Shown here: positions 24,634 to 64,000 of the stretch, piece by piece
Position numbering within the stretch: the first letter of the stretch is position 1
Layout: each line of letters begins with the position of its first letter
Assembly: GCA_012845835.1 (NCBI GenBank)
Contig: JABAKD010000011.1
Location: 8,494,381 to 8,558,380 of the forward strand
DNA: 64,000 nucleotides
Source of the DNA: Undaria pinnatifida
Taxonomy: Eukaryota > Sar > Phaeophyceae > Laminariales > Alariaceae
Direction: 5' to 3'
The notes under the pieces: model-generated
Seen by the model: the letters and a program-made list of their open reading frames with translations, nothing else
What the model was told of the DNA's origin: nothing
Databases searched by the model: none
Program-made: the position numbers and the translations under genes

Positions 24634-25848
24634 AAGCCAATTTCTAATCTGATCAAACGCAATCAACCACTGCTGTAGGGATGACCTCCTTAGTCCCGTA
24701 CACCGCACACCGTACACAGCAGTGTGCCTTAACCATTGCCTCGACTAAGTGGTGCCAGTACCTGGGTAAGATCTAGTGACCAACGGTGTGTTGGGAAGGG
24801 TATGTACTTTGGGGCACTACAGTACAAGGGTAACCTGCCCGGATACAACCTACAGTTGGGTACATACCAGGTATTACCAATGCATAGTCTATGCCTCCCA
24901 ATACCATACGTACTTGTCTCCACTTTACGTAGTACTAGACTAGACTAGACTACTAGTGGTATATAGCGTTTTGAACAATATATCCGGGTCGTATGGTAGA
25001 CTTGTATGGTGCCTCGTATTGGTACATGTTTACTTCTTGTTTAATCCTACCGCTTTCGTTGCAACGACAACAGCAGTTGTTATTAATATACATTTTTTCT
25101 GCTGTTTGCCTCGCCGCTTTTAGTGGTTGTACAGCAGGCAATGCGTTCTGTCTACTGGCTCTTTTCACCCGTTATTTTTTCAGGGCCGTTACTTCATCAT
25201 GTACTTACCTTTTTTTACGTTCTTGCGTTTTGCTTGGGCCATTATCTTGGGAACGCGCTACTGCATATCATGGGAGACCGCGTACTTAACCCCAAAGAAG
25301 CCAGGAGACGATCAGTCAAGGGAAAACGTCCAGCGGTCAAGGGTGTCAAATCGATTGCTCGACATTAAAATCCAATAGTTTGCCTTCAGTCAACGAAAAT
25401 TGTAGGAAACTTGCCGTCCTTCAAGGGGTCAAAGTGCCGTTTCCCGACATATTTGCTTGACCTCTTGACTGATCGACCCATATATACACTAACACTGGTA
25501 CAGCATCTAGAAGACCGCGGTTTGACCCCTTGACTGACCGCCCCTGCACTAAAACTAGTACCTGGTAGTTGTAAACCGAAAAATGCCTTGCTTGGCGCGC
25601 GCAAAGTGACCGGTCTCTTACAAATTTTAAAGCATCGTTGGTTCCAAATGTCGATCGGGGTCCTCTGGCAATTGCCTCCTTTAAAGCGCGACGATGGAGT
25701 CGAGGGATCGGACTTACTGGAGATGAGAGCGAGATTTTCGTTCACAACGAATTGTGCACTGCTGCATGCACATGTTCATATCGTCGGAACAAAAATAAAA
25801 CGATAATCAATAATACCTGGTACGCACCAAGATAATATATATACCAAG

Positions 25849-26092
25849 CTGTCAGATTTTGTCCCCCTCAGAAACGGGTTTTATAGTTTCCGCGCACAGA
25901 CTGACTAAAATCATCCTGTTGACCCTGATAGCTACACTGTAGCTGTAAGGGGAGTCGCCGACCTATATCCTTAATGAGGACACACAACTCGTAATGCGCG
26001 CGATCGGAGTATCACACACAGCTTGCAAAGATGAGTTTCGACGAAATCTTCGATCTCACAGCTGGAGTGTATTTTAATTTTTATAATATACC
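25849..26092 (+). repeat. Dispersed family R1, 3' part (243 bp)
   Basis: Begins GCTGTCAGATTTTGTCCCCC, runs through CTGATAGCTACACTGTAG and ATATCCTTAATGAGGACACA, and ends with the 70-bp module (ATGAGTTTCGACGAAATC ... TTTTTATAATAT). Nearly identical to the ends of the copies at 28240-29163, 52785-53482 and 54143-54870. From 26100 to 27240 nothing else was recognised apart from a CCAC run near 26770. Confidence 0.85.
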
Positions 26093-28239: not shown

Positions 28240-29163
28240 TGCTCTCCCTTACTCAAAACGCCCCACCAAATATTGAAATCCGCCACATTAATAAACACTT
28301 CACGCACAGGATGTCACCTCATTATATTTCGAGAGCCATCCATGCCGCTGTCCCCCCCCCCCCCCCGCCTCGAACGCCCCCTTCTTCCCCATCACCCGCA
28401 CCATCGCCTAGACCTAGCACCACACGTATAACAAACCCCTCACCTAAGCCCTTCCTCCCCCCCCCCCCCCCCCCCCCGCCCCCCCCCCCGCCCCCACCCC
28501 CCACTTCCCCCCCAACCCATCCCAACCCGACCCCCTCGAACACTTCACCCTCTCTTTACTCACTGATTGTACGACTTACCCCAGGATATACATGATAAAC
28601 TGATGTATTATTTCCAAAACCGTCACATTTATCCCCTCAAAATAATGTATAGTTTCCAGGCACATATTGAGCTGCCCCATACGCCCCCCCCCCCCCCCCT
28701 CCCCCCCCCCAATAACATACTGGTGCCAAAATCGTCAGATTTATCCCCTTGAAAGGATTTATAGCTTACATGCACAAATTGCCCCCTTTCCCCCCCTCCA
28801 AACCCGCTCGCTTTTGATCAAAACCAGGCCCCCACGTTCTTCAAAACTCCGCCCCACCCCCCTCACCGGTTATTCGACTTACAAGATTCACTTGATGAAA
28901 GGATACATTTCCCTTCGCAGCTGTCAGATTTTGTCCCCCTCAGAAACGGGTTTTATAGTTTCCGCGCACAGACTGACTAAAATCATCCTGTTGACCCTGA
29001 TAGCTACACTGTAGTTGTAAGGGGAGTCGCCGACCTATATCCTTAATGAGGACACACAACTAGTAATGCGCGCGATCGGAGTATCACACACAGCTTGCAA
29101 AGATGAGTTTCGACGAAATCTTCGATTTCACAGCTGGAGTGTATTTTCATTTTTTATAATATT
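28240..29163 (+). repeat. Dispersed family R1, long copy with poly-C runs
   Basis: The element carries several internal poly-C tracts (28211-28236, 28350-28366, 28456-28499, 28684-28710), separated by conserved blocks such as CGCCTAGACCTAGCACCAC, TTTATCCCCTCAAAATAATG and TTTATCCCCTTGAAAGGATT, and ends in the 243-bp R1 tail. Its reverse complement is at 54143-54870 and another direct copy at 52785-53482. No frame is shared by the copies other than the short one in the tail, so it looks non-autonomous. It ends about 270 bp upstream of the copy B protein start. Confidence 0.75.
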
Positions 29164-29433
29164 TCCCAACCGTATAAAATCCAACAGTTTTCCCGGCGTT
29201 TCTCAGGGAGCCTACCTCGATCGATTAACGGTGGGGAGTGTGGTTCAGTATCTGGCTGTCGACTCAAATCGAAGACGCACAGCTGACCGGATATGTATCG
29301 CGCTATTTCGCGTGGGTTTCGGTACCTAAAGTTCCGTTCGTCGGGAATTCACTACTATCCTCTCGTTTGTCTATACTTTCGTGTCTCCTTCTTGATGCAT
29401 CTATCGTAGGTTGGAGCTACTAACCAGTTGAAG

Positions 29434-31326
29434 ATGGTGTTGGGGTACATTGTCCACCGGTTGGACACAGCGGAAGATGAGAGGGGAACGTCTAAGGACA
29501 ATGAGAACAGGCTTCGCCGTGAGCTCGCCGCGGAACAGAAGCAACACGCTTTGGCACGGGAGTCCTTTTCGACACGCGCGGCTGAGATTGCCCATAGCCT
29601 CGAGAAGGCGAAAATAAGCCACACGAAGCTGGCCATGAAGCACGCGAGCTTGGTCGCCGATAAAGCACGGCGTGACGAGACCAACCGCGTCCTGCAGGCA
29701 AAGGTCGTTCGATTGACCGACACTCTTGCCGACTTTATCGTGAACATCTCTGCACCCGCAGAGCCTCGTCGCGATATCGATGTAGAGACGACTGCTCTGG
29801 GTCCCTCGACGCCGATTTCTTCAGGGGGTTTTGTCGTGCCGGAGGCGTGCCCGGCCGAGGGGTCATTGTCCATTTCCGCCGCAACCGCGGCCAACGGTGA
29901 GGACACATCTTCCTTCTCGGCAGTGGCGCCCTCTCAGCTTGCGGCGGAGGTCGCTTCCCTGAGCGAACAGGTTTGTGCCACTTTTCCCGCGGTCATTTTT
30001 TCATCGACAGAATCTCGCGATATCGAGACAGCAACGGGAGGTTTAGGCGCGTCAACACCGGCTCTTTCTGCGGATTTTGTCGGGACGGTAGTGAGCCCAG
30101 CCGAGGAGCCTTCTTCCTCTTCTGCCACCGCTGCACCCAAGGGCAAGAAGGCGTCTTCGCTACCGGCAGTGACGCCATCCATCCCCAGGGCAGAGGTCGC
30201 TCCCATGAGCGAACCGTTTGCCGCAGTCTTTCCCGTGGACAAGGTGATGGCTTCTCCGTCGGCCGTATGTGATGTGGTAGAGGCAATGGTGGCGGGTGTG
30301 GTCGACCTGGGCTCGTCGACGTCGACTTCTTCTGTTTGCGCTGTCGTACCAGCCGTGAACCTGGCCGAGGGGCCTTCGCCATCTGCCGCTGTCACCGTCG
30401 CGAAGGGTAAGACGGCACCTTCTCTCCAGACATTGGAACCGTTCCGCCCTAGGGCGGAGGTGGCTAACCCGAGCTCACGTTTTTCCACCGCCTTTCCCGT
30501 GGGTAAGATGGCATCTTCTTCGCCGACGCCGTCCCGCTCCAAGCAGCCGTCAGCTTCCAAAGGCAACGCCATGAAACTATCAGCCAACGAAGAGGACGAC
30601 TGTCACGCCTTGGACCTGAAGTCATCACTAGTGGAGGAGGAGCCCGACAAGGTCTGCGGGGCATCGCGGCGGCACACTCGCCGCCCTCTTACGCCCGTCA
30701 ACTCTAACTTCGGGAGGGGGAAGCGCGCAGCAGCAGCAGAAAGGCCTGCATTTTCCGTGCGGGCGGCGACCAATCCATACCAGAGGCGCAGTTCCATCGT
30801 CGGGGAGGTACCGTCGCTTGCCTCTCGGGGGGTGACTAAGAAGTCCCCGCCGAAGCCCATCGTCAACAGCAGCTCCACTGGCAGGGAGGTGCTGCCGCGT
30901 TCCTCGCGGCGGGAGGCCAAGCCCACCGTGAGGCTGGGCTTGAACCGTGGCTCCACCGAAAAGGAGGTGTCGTCGCTTGCTGCACGGGGGGCAGCCGGCA
31001 GTGCAGAGAAGAATGAGCCTGTTGGCAAGGGGCCTGCCGTCGAGGTTAACGAGTCTGTTGGGAAGGGGCCTGCCGTCAAGCTTGTCCGGGGTGGTGGTGC
31101 CCGTCCCGATGGGCTTGTGAGGGGCAAGGGGTCCGGGGGCGGACGGAACATGGAGGTCGCCTCGTCGGGACGAGTACTGCGATCAGCGACTAGGCCTGCT
31201 GCGGCGGCAGCGGCGGCGAATATCGAAGGGGGCACCTCGGCAGCCTCGGGCACTGTGCCCGCCGCCGACGTTGCCGGCGTCTCAGTTCAGCCCACTAGGT
31301 CCGGCAGATCTGCCACTCGCCGGTAA
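29434..31326 (+). CDS. Duplicated disordered protein with N-terminal coiled coil (copy B, complete)
   Basis: ATG at 29434 gives a 630-residue product; a stop lies in frame at 29407, so this exon either starts here or begins at an acceptor just after that TAG. Residues 1-100 (LDTAEDERG, ENRLRRELAAEQKQ, AEIAHSLEKAK, ...RVLQAKVVRLTDTL) have heptad-like spacing typical of a coiled coil. Residues about 105-365 hold three diverged repeats of 80-88 residues, each opening with an F-[PI]-V-x-[KI] type block and closing with a ..AEV..[LMP]S.. block. The rest is basic and Ser/Gly/Lys-rich with recurring GS..KEVPSLAARG and VGKGPAVE motifs, ending QPTRSGRSATRR. No enzyme motif or membrane segment is seen. 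Possible roles are structural or nucleic-acid binding, as inference only. Paralogue: copy A at 1-1176. Confidence 0.65.
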   Translation: MVLGYIVHRLDTAEDERGTSKDNENRLRRELAAEQKQHALARESFSTRAAEIAHSLEKAKISHTKLAMKHASLVADKARRDETNRVLQAKVVRLTDTLADFIVNISAPAEPRRDIDVETTALGPSTPISSGGFVVPEACPAEGSLSISAATAANGEDTSSFSAVAPSQLAAEVASLSEQVCATFPAVIFSSTESRDIETATGGLGASTPALSADFVGTVVSPAEEPSSSSATAAPKGKKASSLPAVTPSIPRAEVAPMSEPFAAVFPVDKVMASPSAVCDVVEAMVAGVVDLGSSTSTSSVCAVVPAVNLAEGPSPSAAVTVAKGKTAPSLQTLEPFRPRAEVANPSSRFSTAFPVGKMASSSPTPSRSKQPSASKGNAMKLSANEEDDCHALDLKSSLVEEEPDKVCGASRRHTRRPLTPVNSNFGRGKRAAAAERPAFSVRAATNPYQRRSSIVGEVPSLASRGVTKKSPPKPIVNSSSTGREVLPRSSRREAKPTVRLGLNRGSTEKEVSSLAARGAAGSAEKNEPVGKGPAVEVNESVGKGPAVKLVRGGGARPDGLVRGKGSGGGRNMEVASSGRVLRSATRPAAAAAAANIEGGTSAASGTVPAADVAGVSVQPTRSGRSATRR

Positions 31327-45774: not shown

Positions 45775-48507
45775 CTGATCAACACCAACACCAACACCAA
45801 CAAAACAGCCACAACACCAACAGTCGCTCACCCCCCCGGCTTGAGCACCCTCGTCATCTCCTCGATGTATTTTCCCTTGTCGGGCATGTGCTCGCCGCTC
45901 TCGCAGGCCCAGACCAGGTCGAAGGAGTTGTCTTCGAAGCTCATGTCCAAGGCGTTGGTCACCTGGAACTTGGCGTTCGGCACGCCCTGCTCTGAAGCCA
46001 GCTGCGTCGCGCGCTTCACCTGTTTACCACCGAAGGGTTTTGGGAAGAAAAGCAGGCCATAGAAGAGGGGGGGGGGGGGGGGGTTGACGGAACACAAGAT
46101 GGAAGTATAGACTATATATATACTACTTGCAGTAAAAACACAGGCAACAGAAGCTACGAACAAAACAAACATCACCTGCATGGGCACGGCAGCACTCTCT
46201 TCTGGGCAGAGTGTTCAGTATAGAGTGCAGAATACAGCATATACTCTCTCCGTTACAATAAAAAGCCTTAGAACATATTCGTAGACTACCCAGACAGCGT
46301 GGACTGACTATTATAACACACTAGGTTATCCTCTCTAATCAGCATGGTCTCAAGAATAGCCGACTGAGCAGCATACAGCTATTAATGGTAGTGGGTTAGC
46401 TTTTCCAATCAACGGAGTCGGAGTAGCACGCAAGCAGTGTATAAGCTATCCCTACTTTTGGTTTCGTTCTGTATGGTTTTGGTTCTAGTTTTTCGGGCTT
46501 CTGGTGAGGTTCGGTTTGGGTTGTATCAATTCTTCTGTCTAGAGGGAGTCTTACGAATACAGCGGCCTATCCCGATTTAAGAGTCCCTCGGAACAGGCCA
46601 GTGATCCCGCTGGCCCGCTCTCATCTCCATGCCGCTCTTACCTCAGATTGGGTATCATGTAGCTTTTGGTATAGGCGTCTCAAACATGTCGGTTGACGGC
46701 ACTCTTGACTTTTGACCGACAACCGTCAAGGACCGCTCCATACTAAAATCAGTATATTTACGTCTAAAGAAGCCCTGACGTGACAAAATTATCATTTAGA
46801 CCGTCAACATACACCTTTGGTCACAAGGCGTGACAAGCCGATTTGACTGCTCTTAACCCCTTCAGAGACCCCAACACCCCTCCTTATACTAAATTCAAGC
46901 GATTTTGCTCCCGAAACCGGGTTTTCCGTTGTGAAGGCGTTACGCCCGTTCTCTCTTATTATGGATGCTCTTAAATCGAGTACCCCGTACCTGCTTCGGG
47001 CTGAGCGTGATACCGGTAACGCTAGTCTCCGGCCCGAGCTTCTTGGCAAGGTAGCGCGATGTACCCCCCACGCCGCAGCCAACGTCTAGCACCGTCTTCG
47101 GGCTCTTGTCCGTCCCAGCCTCGACACCCCCCCACTTGGCCATCTCGTCGATGAAGTCGTACTTTGCTTGGATGAAGTTCTTGCGGAAGGCCCCCTGTTT
47201 TCGTGGGGAGTTGCAGGGGGAGGGAGGGATCGGGGCGGGGGGGGGGGGGGGGGGGGAGGACGGAGGGAGGGAGGGAGGGAGGGAGGAAGATTGCCTACCT
47301 CACCACAGCACCGTAACCTTTTGAGCTTGAAGCTCGCCCCCCCCAACTTCTTTTGAAGGAGAGTCACGCTCGAAATATAGAGCATCAGACAGACGAGACA
47401 CAAAAGAGAAAAAGAGAGCAAAACACATAAATTCGTTCAACTTGTTTCAGCGGGGTAGCTCGCCCCTCGACGAAAAAGCCACACCAATGACACGAACGCC
47501 GAAAATTCGAAAACTACGTGGGTAAGACACGGTGCGCGGTGCCACAAATACCTTCTTCCTCTCCTCATCGTTGTAGTAACCAAGGTGGATGTGCTCTCCC
47601 CAGTAGCTCTCCAAAATACCGTCCTGGGGCGTCACGAGATGAAACAAGAAAAACACAAGACACTTTAATTGATGGAGAACGTTTTACGCTTCTACCACTG
47701 CAAAAAAAAAAAAGATCCCACACTAACTTCAAGCTGTTTTCCAGCGAAACAAATGGGTGCAATTTCACAGGGGTTAAGAACAACAATAACAAGACGAAAA
47801 AAAAAAAACACGCGGGTTGATGCTGACGGTGGCGGCGATAGGGTTTGATACACAGGCATGCCTACAACAATTAACGCCGCAGACCATGATCATCGGTCGA
47901 ATCCCTCGTCCAAAGCACGACCGTCCCTCTTCCGCCTACGGAGCAACCCCCCCCCTTCCCCCGTCCCATCTTAAATACTCCAAAATTTTCTCACACCAAA
48001 GAGATTTTTGTCCCCTCTCCCCCTCCCGCCGAAAATAATCGATTTTTTCCCCCGGTTGTCGGGCTCTCACGACTCTGATTTTTCCACGAAATCGGGCCAC
48101 GCCTTACCTCAACATACCATTAACCATACCCATCCACCCTCCACGACAAACACGCCCAAACAGCTTTACGAATCACAGGCTTCATTCAGCCTTCTTTCGC
48201 CCCCCTCTTGGATGCATGCCGCCAACCGAACATCCTTCCACCCCTCCCCCCTCCGCCCTAATCTGACCCTTATCCCCTTTCCCCTTCCCTTCACCCCCCT
48301 CCCCCCCCTCCATTCCCCCCTCATATCCCCCATCTAAACCCTGACACCCACCTCCGTCCAAGCGTCGTACTCGTTGCCTACGGTGTTGGCCTCGGCGTCG
48401 TACGGCCTCGAGGGCGTGTCGAGGACTTTCAGCGCGACGGCCGCCAGAACCCCGACCGCCGCCACCGCCACCCCTACAACGGCAGTCCGCCGAGTAAGAA
48501 TGCCTCC
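40853..48507 (-). CDS. Tocopherol O-methyltransferase (VTE4-like), seven coding exons, 5' end missing
   Basis: A SAM-dependent methyltransferase of the gamma-tocopherol methyltransferase family, expected to methylate gamma- to alpha-tocopherol in the plastid. Coding exons in order: 48507-48352, 47623-47552, 47194-46991, 46019-45832, 44746-44623, 43641-43548, 41178-40853. All junctions are GT/AG and the phases agree, giving 387 residues from the first recovered exon. Motifs: a hydrophobic anchor-like helix (about 9-27), YDAWTEDGILESYWGEHIH, SAM motif I VLDVGCGVGGTSRYLA (about 111-126), GITLSPKQV, FDLVWACESGEHMPDKGKY, LKPGGNLVVATWCQRD, VETADWAEQTTPTW, and a C-terminal YYKTVRDAW..ERM...F.KGLMQYGMI. 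A Glu/Gly/Ala-rich tail of about 60 residues extends past the usual end. The 48507 exon has no ATG, so a 5' exon, probably with the targeting presequence, is upstream. Family assignment is strong; substrate is inferred. Confidence 0.88.
41675..42110 (+). mobile_element. Element C, full-length copy inside methyltransferase intron
   Basis: Lies antisense in the 2.4-kb last intron (41179-43547). It starts after a poly-G stretch at about 41645-41673 and ends in an AAACAAACAAAAAAAACGG tail at about 42110. Colinear over its length with 9365-9830. Confidence 0.7.
42985..43150 (-). mobile_element. Element C, truncated copy in methyltransferase intron
   Basis: Contains the GACGTGCTCCGTCCCGGC and CTATGGCCATACGACTACGG blocks in reverse orientation, abutting C-runs at 43150-43170. 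A 70-bp module of the R2 type follows at 43378-43437. Confidence 0.6.
43672..43985. repeat. GAGCGAGAAC-type degenerate decamer repeat
   Basis: A purine-rich array of GAGCGAGAAYGAG-like units in the intron between methyltransferase exons 43641 and 44623. The Ser/Phe-rich frames read on the minus strand and the Glu/Arg-rich frame on the plus strand are by-products. Confidence 0.75.
44202..44515. repeat. Roughly 166-bp tandem duplication in methyltransferase intron
   Basis: Copies at 44202-44335 and 44368-44510 share GACATCTTTG.TGTTCCGACG, a CAGTCAGTCAGAAATACTTTG block and ATACCTCTATCGTAGTACGC, each ending in a poly-C run. The TACGATACCTCTATCGTA core is self-complementary. A further C-rich stretch fills 44516-44606, directly behind the splice donor at 44622. 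Confidence 0.8.
45535..45776 (+). mobile_element. LINE 3' end with expanded (CAA)n tail, inside methyltransferase intron
   Basis: AGAGCCTGTCCTGTGA at 45540 and CGAGCTAATGTGAGACCAAC at 45581 match the LINE 3' end at 60830-60897 (AGCCTGTCTTGTGACC ... CGAGTTAATGTGAGAACAAC). The tail has grown to about 165 bp of CAA triplets with CAG interruptions. Poly-Val, poly-Leu and poly-Cys frames on the minus strand are artefacts of this repeat. Confidence 0.65.
46067..46083 (+). repeat. Poly-G tract in intron
   Basis: A run of about 17 G just upstream (in gene sense) of the acceptor at 46020, one of many long C/G homopolymers in this window. On the coding strand this is poly-C close to the 3' splice site. 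Confidence 0.8.
47220..47286 (+). repeat. G-rich tract with (GGGA)n
   Basis: About 20 G followed by six GGGA/GGAG units, lying 25 bp into the intron that precedes the SAM-motif exon (acceptor 47195). C/T-rich on the gene strand, so it could act as part of an extended polypyrimidine tract. Confidence 0.8.
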
Positions 48508-51307: not shown

Positions 51308-51440
51308 AATATATTATAAAAATAAAAATACACTCCAGCTGTGAGATCGAAGATTTTGTCGAAACTCATCTTTGCAAGCTGTGTGTGATACTCCGATCGC
51401 ACGTATTACGGGTTGTGTGTCCTCATTAGGGATATAGGGT
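51308..51440 (-). repeat. Family R1, truncated tail copy
   Basis: Reverse complement of the 70-bp module plus about 50 bp of the preceding R1 tail (GAGTATCACACACAGC, GTCCTCATTAAGG-like). It reads through without a stop as part of a longer minus-strand frame, which is probably accidental. Confidence 0.75.
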
Positions 51441-52784: not shown

Positions 52785-53482
52785 TCGCTTAAACGCCCCA
52801 CCTAATATCGAAATCCGCCAGAGTAATAAACACTTGCCACGCCCTGGATACCGCTTCGTTATCTTTTTAGAGCCGTCCATGCCGCTGCTGCAATTCCCAC
52901 CCACCCCCACCCCCAACGCCCCCTCCTTTCCCACCACGCGCACTATCGCCTAGACCTAGCACCACGCGTATAGCAAACCCCTACATCTATGCGACCTAAA
53001 GCCCTCCCCCCCCGCCCCCCGCTTCCCCCGCCACATTCCCCCCCCCTCCCCCACAAGAAGGATTTATAGTTTCCACGCACAAATTGACCTGCCCCACCCG
53101 TCCCCTCCCCCCCCTCCCCCCCTCCCGCCCCCCTTTTGATCAAAATCAGGCCCCCACGTCCTTAAAAACTCCGCCCTCTCCTCACCGGGTATTCGGCGTA
53201 CAGGATTCGCTTGATAAACTGATGCATTTCCTTTCACAGCTGTCAGATTTTGTCCCCCTCAGAAACGGGTTTTATAGTTTCCGCGCACAGACTGCCTAAC
53301 ATCACCCTGTTCACCCTGATAGCTACACTGTAGTTGAAAGGGGGGTCGCCGACCTATATCCTTAATGAGGACACACAACCCGTAATACGCGCGATCGGAG
53401 TATCACACACAGCTTGCAAAGATGAGTTTCGACAAAATCTTCGATCTCACAGCTGGAGTGTATTTTTATTTTTATAATATGA
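52785..53482 (+). repeat. Dispersed family R1, long copy
   Basis: Shares AACGCCCCACCTAATAT..AAATCCGCCA, GCCGTCCATGCCGCTG, CGCCTAGACCTAGCACCACG, C-runs, GTATTCGGC.TACAGGATTC and the complete 243-bp tail with the copy at 28240-29163. It lacks one of the internal poly-C blocks. The stretch 52305-52785 before it has no recognised feature beyond a poly-G run at 52638. Confidence 0.75.
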
Positions 53483-54142: not shown

Positions 54143-54870
54143 TATTATAAAAATTAAAATACACTCCAGCTGTGAGATCGAAGATTTCGTCGAAACTCAT
54201 CTTTGCAAGCTGTGTGTGATACTCCGATCGCGCGCATTACGAGTTGTGTGTCCTCATTAAGGATATAGGTCGGCGACTCCCCTTACAGCTACAGTGTAGC
54301 TATCAGGGTCAACAGGATGATTTTAGTCAGTCTGTGCGCGGAAACTATAAAACCCGTTTCTGAGGGGGACAAAATCTGACAGCTGTGAAGGCAAAGGGGG
54401 GGCCTGGTTTTGATCAAAAGCGAGCGGGTTTGGAGGGGGGCGGGGGGGGGGGGGGGGGGGGAAAGGGCAATTTGTGCATGTAAACTATAAATCCTTTTGA
54501 GGGGATAAATCTGACGGTTTTGGCACCAGTATATTATTGGGGGCGGGGGGGGGGGGGGGGGGGGGTTGGCGCGGGGGGGGGGGGGGGGGGCAGCTCGATA
54601 TGTGCCTGGAAACTATACATTATTTTGAGGGGATAAATGTGACATTTTTGGAAATAATACATCAGTTTATCGTGTATATTCTGGGGTAAGTCGTACAATC
54701 AGTGAGTAAAGAGAGGGTGGAGTGTTCGAGGGGGTGGGGTTGGGATGGGTTGGGGGGGGAGGGTGGGGGGTGGGGGCGGGGGCGGGGGGCGGGGGGGGGG
54801 GGGGAAAGGGCTTTAGGTGAGGGGTTTGTTATACGTGTGGTGCTAGGTCTAGGCGAAGGTGCGGGTATTA
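54143..54870 (-). repeat. Dispersed family R1, long copy (minus)
   Basis: Reverse complement of 28430-29163, including the blocks TTTTGAGGGGATAAAT, ACTATACATTATTTTGAGG, GGGGTAAGTCGTACAATC and TGGTGCTAGGTCTAGGCG, and the poly-G runs at 54430-54465, 54546-54566 and 54574-54592 in place of poly-C. With the plus copy at 28.4 kb it forms a roughly 730-bp inverted pair 25 kb apart. Confidence 0.85.
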
Positions 54871-58944: not shown

Positions 58945-59069
58945 CATAACTCCACACGTTGAGACAGATCACCGATGCCCACTTGAAAATATAGATATTT
59001 CAGGGATTTATCTGTACGGTTTAGCTCAAGTTTCCGGGTGGGAGTTGTACGATCTGCATGATCTAGCAA

Positions 59070-59894
59070 ATGTTTGCAGGGTTGGACTCTCTTCTGTACA
59101 GCAAAAAGCAAACGTTTCCAGGGTTGGATATGGAAACCAAAAGCGGGGGGAAGGTGTCCTTCACAATCAATGCAGCCGGCCAGGTATACAAACAAACAAT
59201 CGAGTTTGTGTACTTGGGCGTGGCTATCATCGCAGACAGAGAACTTAGCATTGAAATAACGCGGCGTCTTCAGAGGGCCTGGGCGTGCTTCCAGCGGTAC
59301 AAGATGGAAATCTATGATCGCCCGGGTGTGCGCTTACGGTTGAAGGTGCGGTTGCTGAAAGCTGAGGTGGTCGAGACACTGCTTTACGGTTGTATGACGT
59401 GGAGCCCGAACAAGCCTGACTATGACAGGCTACGACGGGTTCACCACTCCATGCTCGTCCGATGCCTCGGATGGTGGAAACGGAAGAGCGACGACCACAC
59501 TCTATCATACGCCGACGCGCTTGCCAAGACAGCTTCCGAGAGCACAGAGGCGATAGTGCGCAAACGGAGGATATTGTTTGCGGGATTCGTAGCACGTACG
59601 GGGGATGAGCGTCTGCCACAGAGGGTGATGTTTGGGGAGCTTGTTGGGGGTGAGGGCTACTCAGGGGGGCAAGAGAAGGACTGGATCGTTCATCTGAAGG
59701 AGGATGTGTCGGTCTTTGGAATGGAATTTGAAAGGTGGCGAAAGGCTGCTCAGAAGGCCGGCAGATGGTTTCGACGAGTAGAGGAGGGAGCCGAGTTGTT
59801 CATGCGGAATTGGCATGAAAAGGAGAAACGCATAGAAAGCTGCAGAGCGACGCGCAAAGACTGCGGCAGCGCCATCCACCGTCGGCATCTCTGA
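59070..59894 (+). pseudogene. LINE (non-LTR retrotransposon) reverse transcriptase, C-terminal fragment
   Basis: An open frame of 274 residues matches the region after the RT catalytic core in LINE ORF2 proteins: TIEFVYLGVAI, then RRLQRAWACF, KVRLLKAEVVETLLYGCMTW, LRRVHHSMLVRCLGWWKRK and a basic C-terminal part. The YxDD catalytic block, the fingers/palm and any endonuclease are missing, so this is a 5'-truncated copy as usual for LINEs. The ATG at 59070 is simply the first in the frame. Because the remaining frame is undamaged over 820 bp, insertion may be fairly young. Its 3' untranslated part appears to run to 60897. Confidence 0.75.
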
Positions 59895-60456: not shown

Positions 60457-60854
60457 CCAGGCGCGAGTAGTGAGACGTATGCACCAGTATGGACCTGGCA
60501 CATCGTAGGCTGACTCGCTATTTCACTTTTATATGTTTCTGGTGGAGGCATGGATTGCGTCAGCTGTGATAAATGCGTGTACCACCTTTGGTTTGTTTGT
60601 GCTTTCTTCCTGAGGTATTCCTCAGCTCCAGAGTGACTGCAGCCTGTCCTGTGACCAGGCGCGAGTAGTGAGACGTATGCACCAGTATGGACCTGGCACA
60701 TCGTAGGCTGACTCGCTATTTCACTTTTATATGTTTCTGGTGGAGGCATGGATTGCGTCAGCTGTGATATATGCGTGTACCACCTTTGGTTTGTTTGTGT
60801 TTTCTTCCTGAGGTATTCCTCAGCTCCAGAGTGACTGCAGCCTGTCTTGTGACC
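60457..60854 (+). repeat. 198-bp tandem duplication in the LINE 3' region
   Basis: Copy 1 60457-60654 and copy 2 60655-60854 differ at only a few bases (e.g. GATAAATGC / GATATATGC, TTTGTGC / TTTGTGT, TGTCCTG / TGTCTTG). Each carries a CCTGAGGTATTCCTCAG palindrome. Confidence 0.95.
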
Positions 60855-60897: not shown

Positions 60898-62212
60898 ACT
60901 CTATTACATGCAGATCCTGCACAACGTCTTGTAATGTCAGGTACAGGGTCTACTATGTATATCTAGATGATCTAGATCGTGATCTGTGCGAGGTGTGCAT
61001 AACTATAATAATAACATGAAAGGGATCCCTGTTTTTTAGGCGCGGCCATGCAACAAGAAACTTGCATTTCCTCGTGACAAAAGATGAGGAGTGAGACATC
61101 TGCTGGTATACCAGACATCAGAATAAGATATCGGTACTCTTATCATAGTTTTATCGCTTGAGAAGGACAAGGGAGACAGGAAGCAGCGAGTGCCAGTAGT
61201 GAGAGTTGCAGGGTCAGCCGCACACGACGATTGCAACATGATGGCATCTGGAACATCAAACAAGGCAGTGCATACGGTCTAATGCTCGGACTCGTGTTCG
61301 TAGCAGTGGCAGGCACACGCCATTCTATCATACGTACGTCCTCTCAAAGATTCCAGCTGTGTGCCGGTGCCGAGGAGACACCCGCAACATGTGCTCTGAT
61401 AAATAAGGGAAGTTGAGCGTCGGCATGGCTGCTGCAATTGGGTGCATACCGGCACTCGGGCACGTATCATGTCATGCAGACGGAGGTACGCTGCAGACCG
61501 AGTGCTCTTCAGAGGGAAAACACAAAACATGTCGAAAAATCCAGCTGGAAAAATCGACCAAGCAGCCAGGCGACTGCTGGGGGAGGGGCGACTGGGTAGG
61601 GGATGCGTCCGACCGGAAACGTAAGGGCCTATACTACACGCGTACAGCATGGTTATACTCGTGCTGCTGCAAGCTCCTCCTAGGCGCTTGTGAAGATCGC
61701 ACTCGCTGGGTTGTTTTGTCGCCATGCACGACTCCCCAAAGGTTTTGGCGATGTACCCAGGTATCATATCACCAGCATTAACTGACCCGACTGACTGACG
61801 GATTGACTGACCTACTGAAAAAAAGGTGACAACCTTTCTTTGCAACAGTTCGTGAAGGAAACATGAACATTTTCATCTCGTTCGACAAAGCCCGCGGTGT
61901 TCTTTTCCGACCTTGACCGGCTTCAACACCACAAGGCATGCTCCTCACTCACCTGCATCTTTGCGTTGCTATCTTGAGCCGCCAGAAAGACTCCGGGTAC
62001 TACACCTCTTGGCTCTTGGCAGCATGGAAAACCTCAGAGTTGATGATGCACGGGAGTTATAACGATAAGTAGGCCGCATGCTTTCGGGAAGGTCAAGTAT
62101 GCCAATAGGCTGGCCCACCACCCACGATCACAATGCACTCGAGGAGCCAGCAGCCGGAGTACTCCGCTCAAGTTGTTATATAGAGTAGCCTTAGGATCTC
62201 TGAAACGTGGCA

Positions 62213-63842
62213 ATGGGCAAGCCTGGTGGCCGCGGCAGGGGAGATCAGACTAAGAATTCCGAAGGACCAAAACATTCCACAAAGACAAGCAAGGCGGATC
62301 GCCGTAAGATCACACCACGATTGCCTGGCGGAGCAGCTGCAGCGCCGGCGCCAACAGCAGCGGCAGCAGCAGCGGCAACAACATCAGCAACACATCCATC
62401 TCGCCCTTCTTCCAACAAGCACAAGGAAAAAAAGAAGAGGAAACGCAACCGCCAAGACGCTTCCAGCAACGCTTCCAGCAATACATTGCACTCGCCTTCC
62501 CCCGCTCGGCAATCCCGAGCCAACCCGATAGCCCCACCGAAGCGAACAAAGGACAGGCCGGCTCGCTTCACGCACCCGCAGCTCCAAGCCGACCTACGCC
62601 TGCAGCGCCGCCCATGGCTCTCCCCAGGTGACCCCCTGTTTCAGGCCGCTCTTGATCACAGCTACCGAGGGATGAGGCATGTGCCGAGGGACTCGCTGCC
62701 AAAGGCGGTGCACAGCAAGTTCAGGAGGTCCTTCGACGACCTGCACGAGGCCGGTCTGTTCCTGTACGACACCGTGCAGGCTGGGGGTAAGCGACTGAGC
62801 AGGACGTTTGTCACGAGGACGCTGCTCGGGGATCCGGGCATCACGTATAAGGTGAAAGTGAGAGCGAGGCGTTCGAAATAATGTTGTGGCGAGGGAAGGG
62901 GCACCGGAGCGCTGCGACTGCCCGTGCTCTGGCTGCTGTACTTTTGCGGTATGTATTGTGTACGGCCTGTTTCAACTGGAAGCTGGATGGGAGTCGAGGG
63001 TCTGTTCTGATGTGTTGCCCCATCAGCCATGGGCCCGATAGGAAGAGCTGAGGGGTCCGTGCTCTGCACAAAGCCACTCCACGTCGGTCGGCGGATGATG
63101 GGCATATACTTTGTGGACGCTAGAAAATTATAGTTCACCTAACGCACATGCGAGCTACGAAATACCGGGTTGCAGTAGGTCTTCAGTCGGAAAATTGTGG
63201 ACTCTTGTCGCACACGTACAGACGCATCTACTGATACCGATGTTGTACTGCTTGTAGCCAAGAATCTCCGATACACGCTCTTACTACAGCTGTATTTCGC
63301 ACATATACGCGTATTCCGCGTCACGCTTCTGAAGTTTCCTCTTTTTCACCGCCGTTTCCACCCTCGTCAGTACCTCGGGCTTCGACTCTTCGCACACCCT
63401 TGGGATATGGTGGGCGACTTCAAGACGGGACCCGGCGACGGCTTGGCAGACGCGCTGAATGATCCGTGCCTGGCGAACCTTTTTCGAAGCGAAGGCGGGG
63501 ATGGTGCAGGGGAGGGGGTGGGGCTGAAGGACAGCGACCTCGAAAAAGTACGAGATACCCTGCGAATAGTGGGCTCTCTCAGCGAGTGGATGCGTGTCAA
63601 GGCCGTCGCGCTCCTTGAAGACGAGAGCAAAGGCGGTGGTGGTGATGGCGGTGGTGGCGGTGGTGGTGATGGGGAAGACGTTTTATCCGCGGGGGGGAGC
63701 TGCGCGTTCAACCTGACGCTGATCAATCGGATGGAGTGCTCCTCGGCGAAGCGGGACCTGAAGCCCGAGCCCATGTTCGACATGGGCAAATGCTCCGTCA
63801 GCTGGCACGCCGACAGCTGTCTGCAAGACTTCTCCACAATAG
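62213..63842 (+). CDS. FTO: FTO-like alpha-ketoglutarate-dependent RNA demethylase, exons 1-2 (3' end outside window)
   Basis: FTO proteins are Fe(II)/2-oxoglutarate dioxygenases that oxidatively remove N6-methyl from adenine in RNA, mostly in the nucleus. Exon 1 is 62213-62851 (ATG to donor AAG|GTGAAA), exon 2 is 63371-63842 (acceptor GTCAG, donor ATAG|GTGATG), together 370 residues. Residues 1-115 are low complexity (Ala run, KEKKKRKRNR nuclear-signal-like patch). From 116 the N-terminal FTO domain is plain: LHEAGLFLYD, RTLLGDPGITYK|YLGLRLFAHPW, CAFNLTLINRME, KPEPMFDMGKCSVSWHADS. By alignment with human FTO, R96, Y106, Y108, L109 and N205 are kept (here R202, Y212, Y214, L215, N327), and the metal pair H231/D233 is H359/D361. 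An Asp/Gly-rich insert sits at about 299-315. The second metal His, the 2OG-binding Arg and the C-terminal helical domain must be in later exons. Family call is strong. Confidence 0.9.
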
Positions 63843-64000
63843 GTGATGTAGTACGTCTGTTATTCATACTGCTGTACGGCCAAACTGTCGCTGTGTATCC
63901 ACGTAACGTTTATGATGATGAAGCCAAGGCGTGGTGTTGCTTTGCTAAAGTCGGGGAGAAACATGTGTATGATATGATGCGATCGATGATTCTCTCCTCT

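Follow-up and report, generated by a model that had tools for sequence, protein, structure and literature searches.

We call the whole 64,000-nucleotide stretch of DNA that was analysed the window. Its final 1.8 kb contain two open exons of an FTO-family gene on the plus strand (62213–63842). Exon 1 (62213–62851) starts with an ATG at 62213, in a reading frame that begins at 62204, right after a stop codon and three codons 5' of the ATG. Its codons 1–135 specify a basic low-complexity extension, followed by the start of the catalytic domain up to K107 in human numbering. A 519-nt phase 0 intron with GT-AG borders (62852–63370; donor AAG/GTGAAAG, acceptor CGTCAG/TAC) separates it from exon 2 (63371–63842), which extends from Y108 to just beyond the HxD motif, includes loop L1, and stops, in phase 1, before a GT donor (ATAG/GTGATG). 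Joined in phase, the two exons encode 370 amino acids with the junction GITYK/YLGLRLF. An earlier reading made from the letters alone (the sequence-only reading) had proposed this same joining, and its coordinates and frame proved correct. The second intron, starting at 63843, runs to the end of the window (64000); three-frame reading by eye recognised no additional FTO exon in these final 158 bases. Third-position G+C reaches 0.79 for the catalytic portion of exon 1 and 0.70 for exon 2, versus 0.54 for the intron. A tblastn search with the window's own domain (E up to 1) found no second FTO copy in the window, and human FTO fragments gave no tblastn match below E = 0.1 outside both exons.

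The joined exons matched the Pfam family FTO_NTD with E = 5.6e-48 and 164 bits (cut-off 27) over positions 3–192 of the 275-position profile. Each exon was also significant separately: exon 1 with E = 3.8e-16 (residues 143–213), and exon 2 with E = 3.8e-24 (profile positions 73–192). Apart from FTO_NTD, Pfam listed no AlkB-class family at E up to 1, a range in which the HMMER filters remove most matches above about 0.1, and the other AlkB classes were rejected on this basis; the sole further listings were a ribosomal protein (E = 0.67, joined exons) and a phage capsid protein (E = 0.29, exon 2). A placement closer to another AlkB-class family, which the sequence-only reading had named as a ground for abandoning the FTO assignment, was thus not found in Pfam. 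The PDB search returned 115 distinct sequences at E up to 1, the best 12 of which are FTO chains (3e-21 to 1.8e-17). Ranks 13–60 of the 115 have E-values of 0.012 or worse and comprise mostly single-chain antibodies, a few integrase/TET2 constructs, and others; among these best 60, the non-FTO matches fall mainly on a Gly-rich stretch. No FTO model of NCBIfam matched either exon, and exon 1 gave weak chance matches only.

For comparison, 50 additional open frames, picked from the window for length or nearness, were searched against Pfam; the pool consisted of 206 frames of at least 90 amino acids, the FTO frames among them. A single one of the 50, an exon of a methyltransferase gene, reached a curated cut-off, two had matches below the cut-off only (E 0.0007 to 0.0034), and the remaining 47 had none at E up to 0.01. 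Protein searches of the collections viral_contigs, genome_contigs and phages revealed no viral or prokaryotic relatives of the window protein, and these are weak negatives: viral_contigs and genome_contigs were scanned with six peptide patterns of the protein, two of which lie within the low-complexity extension, and further with two patterns each derived from a two-row alignment. Altogether, the profile and structure matches, which are well beyond chance, support the assignment of this predicted gene to the FTO family over the approximately two thirds of the catalytic domain that are visible, and the FTO-type identity proposed earlier stands as far as the window reaches.

Active-site residues, loop L1 and the N-terminal extension

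The predicted protein is identical to the human FTO fragments found in the PDB matches at 55 of 128 aligned pairs. Of 16 positions that were checked, 13 carry the human residue (K88, R96, Y106, Y108, L109, L203, N205, K216, V228, S229, W230, H231, and D233), while three differ (I85A, H232A, and E234S). The first two metal ligands are present in an H-A-D motif (63806–63814, plus strand; human H231, H232, D233), with the equivalents of H231 at 63806 and D233 at 63812. N205 is presumably a 2-oxoglutarate contact in FTO. The roles of most of the checked residues, and the location of I85 and E234 in the base pocket, are given in the available text of a review (PMC7835257). All seven residues named in the sequence-only reading (R96, Y106, Y108, L109, N205, H231, and D233) are retained on the alignment to the human fragments. 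Its wider description of the active-site residues as intact holds for these seven; it does not extend to the base pocket, which is changed by I85A and E234S, or to the distal half, which lies beyond the visible part. None of the three differences from human FTO had been mentioned there.

Of the positions involved in base recognition, R96 is thus kept and E234 is replaced by Ser. The available portions of the literature disagree on the significance of residue 234. One report describes a contact of this residue with m3T via the backbone amide, states that mutagenesis of Glu234 abolished the m3T activity, and regards Glu234 as a likely key determinant of specificity (PMC5424463). Another, in the accessible part of its text, found no significant effect of E234D, while a change of E234 that is not named there abolished or greatly reduced activity (PMC3692548). 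According to a third, E234 is functionally conserved and the defect of E234P was ascribed to a lost side-chain hydrogen bond (PMC9339907), which conflicts with a backbone contact. Since a serine at this position retains the amide but loses the carboxylate, demethylase activity appears likely, although it is not assured.

The equivalent of loop L1 (MECSSAKRDLKPEPMFDMGK, 63731–63790, plus strand) is one residue longer than in the human enzyme and retains K216. The loop before the HxD motif had been described as preserved (KPEP.F.MGK), and indeed LKPEPMFDMGK aligns with human LKEEPYFGMGK. In the available texts, the limits of FTO loop L1 vary by paper, being residues 210–223 or 213–224, and its role is discussed there (PMC7835257, PMC3692548).

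Two low-complexity parts are found in the predicted protein. A Gly/Asp-rich linker (63632–63679, plus strand; residues 301–316), including a tandem repeat at 63635–63666, lies within the domain, at a place that is presumably variable in human FTO as well. In the N-terminal extension, a K/R-rich stretch (RPSSNKHKEKKKRKRNR, 62402–62452, plus strand; residues 64–80) contains KEKKKRKRNR and has 10 K/R in 17 residues, the maximum of the whole protein, whereas no 17 residues of the catalytic part have more than 5; the K/R-rich stretch is a candidate nuclear localisation signal. The G+C content of the three codon positions of the extension is flat (0.59, 0.65, and 0.56) with no excess at the third position, which makes the extension less certain to be coding than the remainder.

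Proposed function and alternative explanations

The most plausible explanation, to which we assign a probability of about 0.83, is that the 3' end of the window carries coding exons 1 and 2 of a eukaryotic, probably algal, nuclear gene of the FTO family, which most likely encodes an Fe(II)/2-oxoglutarate dioxygenase. Human FTO is known as an enzyme that removes methyl marks from RNA. By analogy with it, in a single strand of RNA or DNA an N-methylated base would be flipped between Tyr108 and His231 and held by Arg96 and residue 234, the flanking phosphates would be contacted by Lys88 and Lys216, and the methyl group would be taken off oxidatively. The parts of this explanation that we infer are the distal metal-binding His and the Arg residues, the C-terminal domain, the expression of the gene, the nuclear location of its product, the host, and the substrate. 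Points against it are the position of Y295, H307, R316, R322 and the C-terminal domain past the window end, the pocket changes I85A and E234S together with the loss of activity reported for E234 mutants, the flat G+C content of the extension, the lack of a relative in viral_contigs, genome_contigs and phages, and, as regards an alga, the mostly non-cyanobacterial plasmid matches of the neighbouring methyltransferase gene.

Compared with human and vertebrate FTO (PF12933; PDB 3lfm), the window protein has the same order of parts in the N-terminal catalytic domain, the 13 residues listed above and loop L1. It differs in I85A, H232A and E234S, in the additional residue of loop L1, in the long basic low-complexity N-terminal extension, and in the Gly/Asp-rich internal linker. 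The FTOs of diatoms, Ostreococcus and brown algae belong to the same family and plausibly come from the same kind of organism, a likeness that is based on published reports rather than on alignment. PMC2241624, in its available text, describes vertebrate FTO as having a K/R-rich N-terminus that the algal and diatom homologs do not share, while the window protein has a K/R stretch of its own. The same 2007 paper reported FTO homologs in Ostreococcus and diatoms (PMC2241624), and a 2010 review, as far as its text is available, extended the algal homologs to multicellular seaweed (PMC2906751). A 2012 study clustered 1943 AlkB proteins and annotated stramenopile FTO with "Diatoms and Brown Algae" (PMC3265494), although the footnote numbers in the accessible part of that paper look partly misprinted, since Metazoa has the identical note. 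Given that FTO had already been published for diatoms, green algae and brown seaweeds, a further member of this known group is no surprise, and the gene is one addition to the algal FTOs reported in 2007–2012.

Among the rival explanations, it is rather unlikely that the product is an enzyme with the FTO fold whose substrate has shifted, through positions 85 and 234, to another methylated base, cap m6Am, snRNA or DNA 6mA. Both substitutions are located in the base pocket, and the description of Glu234 as a likely specificity determinant (PMC5424463, in its available text) agrees with such a shift; Y106, L203 and R96, however, are kept. One survey, as available, did not find an m6A methyltransferase in Ectocarpus, which would favour a different mark, but its Ectocarpus row contains FIP37, ALKBH9/10-type erasers and YTH readers, suggesting some m6A (PMC6576107), and the source organism need not be close to Ectocarpus. 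Moreover, according to the accessible text of PMC12024952, overexpressed human FTO lowered total RNA m6A in a diatom, and thus m6A occurs in some ochrophytes. A tentative and fairly improbable extension of the same idea is that an alga whose lineage has no METTL3/METTL14-type m6A writer keeps FTO for another mark, changes at positions 85 and 234 having adapted the base pocket, and the enzyme having an extension of its own for nuclear targeting; such marks could be cap m6Am, snRNA m6A and DNA 6mA set by METTL4/METTL16-type enzymes.

We consider it very unlikely that the exons belong to a decayed or truncated FTO copy in which the first exons survive while the downstream catalytic core is lost or broken. 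Such a copy would be compatible with the visibility of only 190 of the 275 profile positions, Y295, H307, R316, R322 and the C-terminal domain lying past the window end, as well as with I85A and E234S and with the repeat-rich window; yet the 1,110 coding nucleotides are free of stops and frame shifts, the splice sites are canonical, and the metal and base residues are conserved in the exons. That another AlkB-class protein, of the ALKBH2/3 or ALKBH5-like type, has been taken for FTO is hardly credible. The HxD motif is common to AlkB proteins in general. The available part of PMC5424463 reports that ALKBH5 likewise has an L1 loop, but also that AlkB has Met, and ALKBH2 Gln, at the position of R96, which is present here; together with FTO_NTD as the sole AlkB-class family listed in Pfam, this comes near to refutation.

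For the FTO-family gene preferred here, the substrate is the point worth testing, and m6A, which the sequence-only reading favoured, is a presumed substrate. A literature search, judged mostly by titles and abstract openings, found no biochemical test of an algal FTO. The gene bears on the patchy distribution of FTO among vertebrates and algae, which is discussed as horizontal transfer in the accessible text of PMC4358723, and on the ancestral substrate of the family. An algal FTO in a lineage where a survey detected no m6A methyltransferase would also raise the question of what role FTO plays where METTL3-made m6A may be absent.

Neighbouring genes and repeats

The window is probably eukaryotic, since it carries a gene that is spliced, and dispersed repeats are numerous in it. 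Scans of the window for tRNA and Rfam families found nothing. A gene for a SAM-dependent methyltransferase was recognised on the minus strand (45828–47683) by reading the frames 47447–47683, 46940–47299 and 45828–46214 as one; its exon 46943–47299 matched Pfam Methyltransf_25, and in the PDB the pieces matched SAM methyltransferases (best E = 1.6e-24). Among the best 25 of 39 NCBIfam listings for this exon none reached the cut-off, with cyclopropane fatty-acid synthases at the top. The sequence appears gamma-tocopherol methyltransferase-like. In a collection of bacterial plasmids, which contains no eukaryotes, the joined pieces matched 530 records, the best five of which are cyanobacterial by name (56–58% identity over 97–98% of the query); most of the 530 are non-cyanobacterial, the commonest genera being Sinorhizobium (78), Streptomyces (63) and Rhizobium. 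A methyltransferase with cyanobacterial best plasmid matches would weakly fit a photosynthetic eukaryote, without proving one. The origin proposed in the sequence-only reading, a probable brown alga, thereby gains weak support as regards an alga; an EsV-1-7-like spacing motif, of a kind known from brown algae, did not occur in the six frames of the window, which is uninformative on a brown alga.

The open frame at 59067–59891 (plus strand, 275 codons) presumably encodes the C-terminal region of a protein from a non-LTR retrotransposon; it had no relative in viral_contigs and no Pfam family, and its best PDB match was an integrin (E = 0.05). The plus-strand segments 437–736 and 30638–30937 are 75% identical in DNA across 300 nt. 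They belong to the long frames 1–1173 and 29410–31323, whose ends are similar and Ser/Ala/Gly-rich; neither frame matched a Pfam family at E up to 0.01, and the two may be copies of a duplicated gene or element. A 198-nt unit is present in two tandem copies (60457–60852) that are 98% identical and lie about 1.4 kb 5' of the start of the FTO gene. A dispersed repeat family occurs in both orientations at 25847–26088, 28908–29154, 51311–51438, 53227–53479 and 54143–54395, with one inverted pair being 100% complementary over 242 nt.
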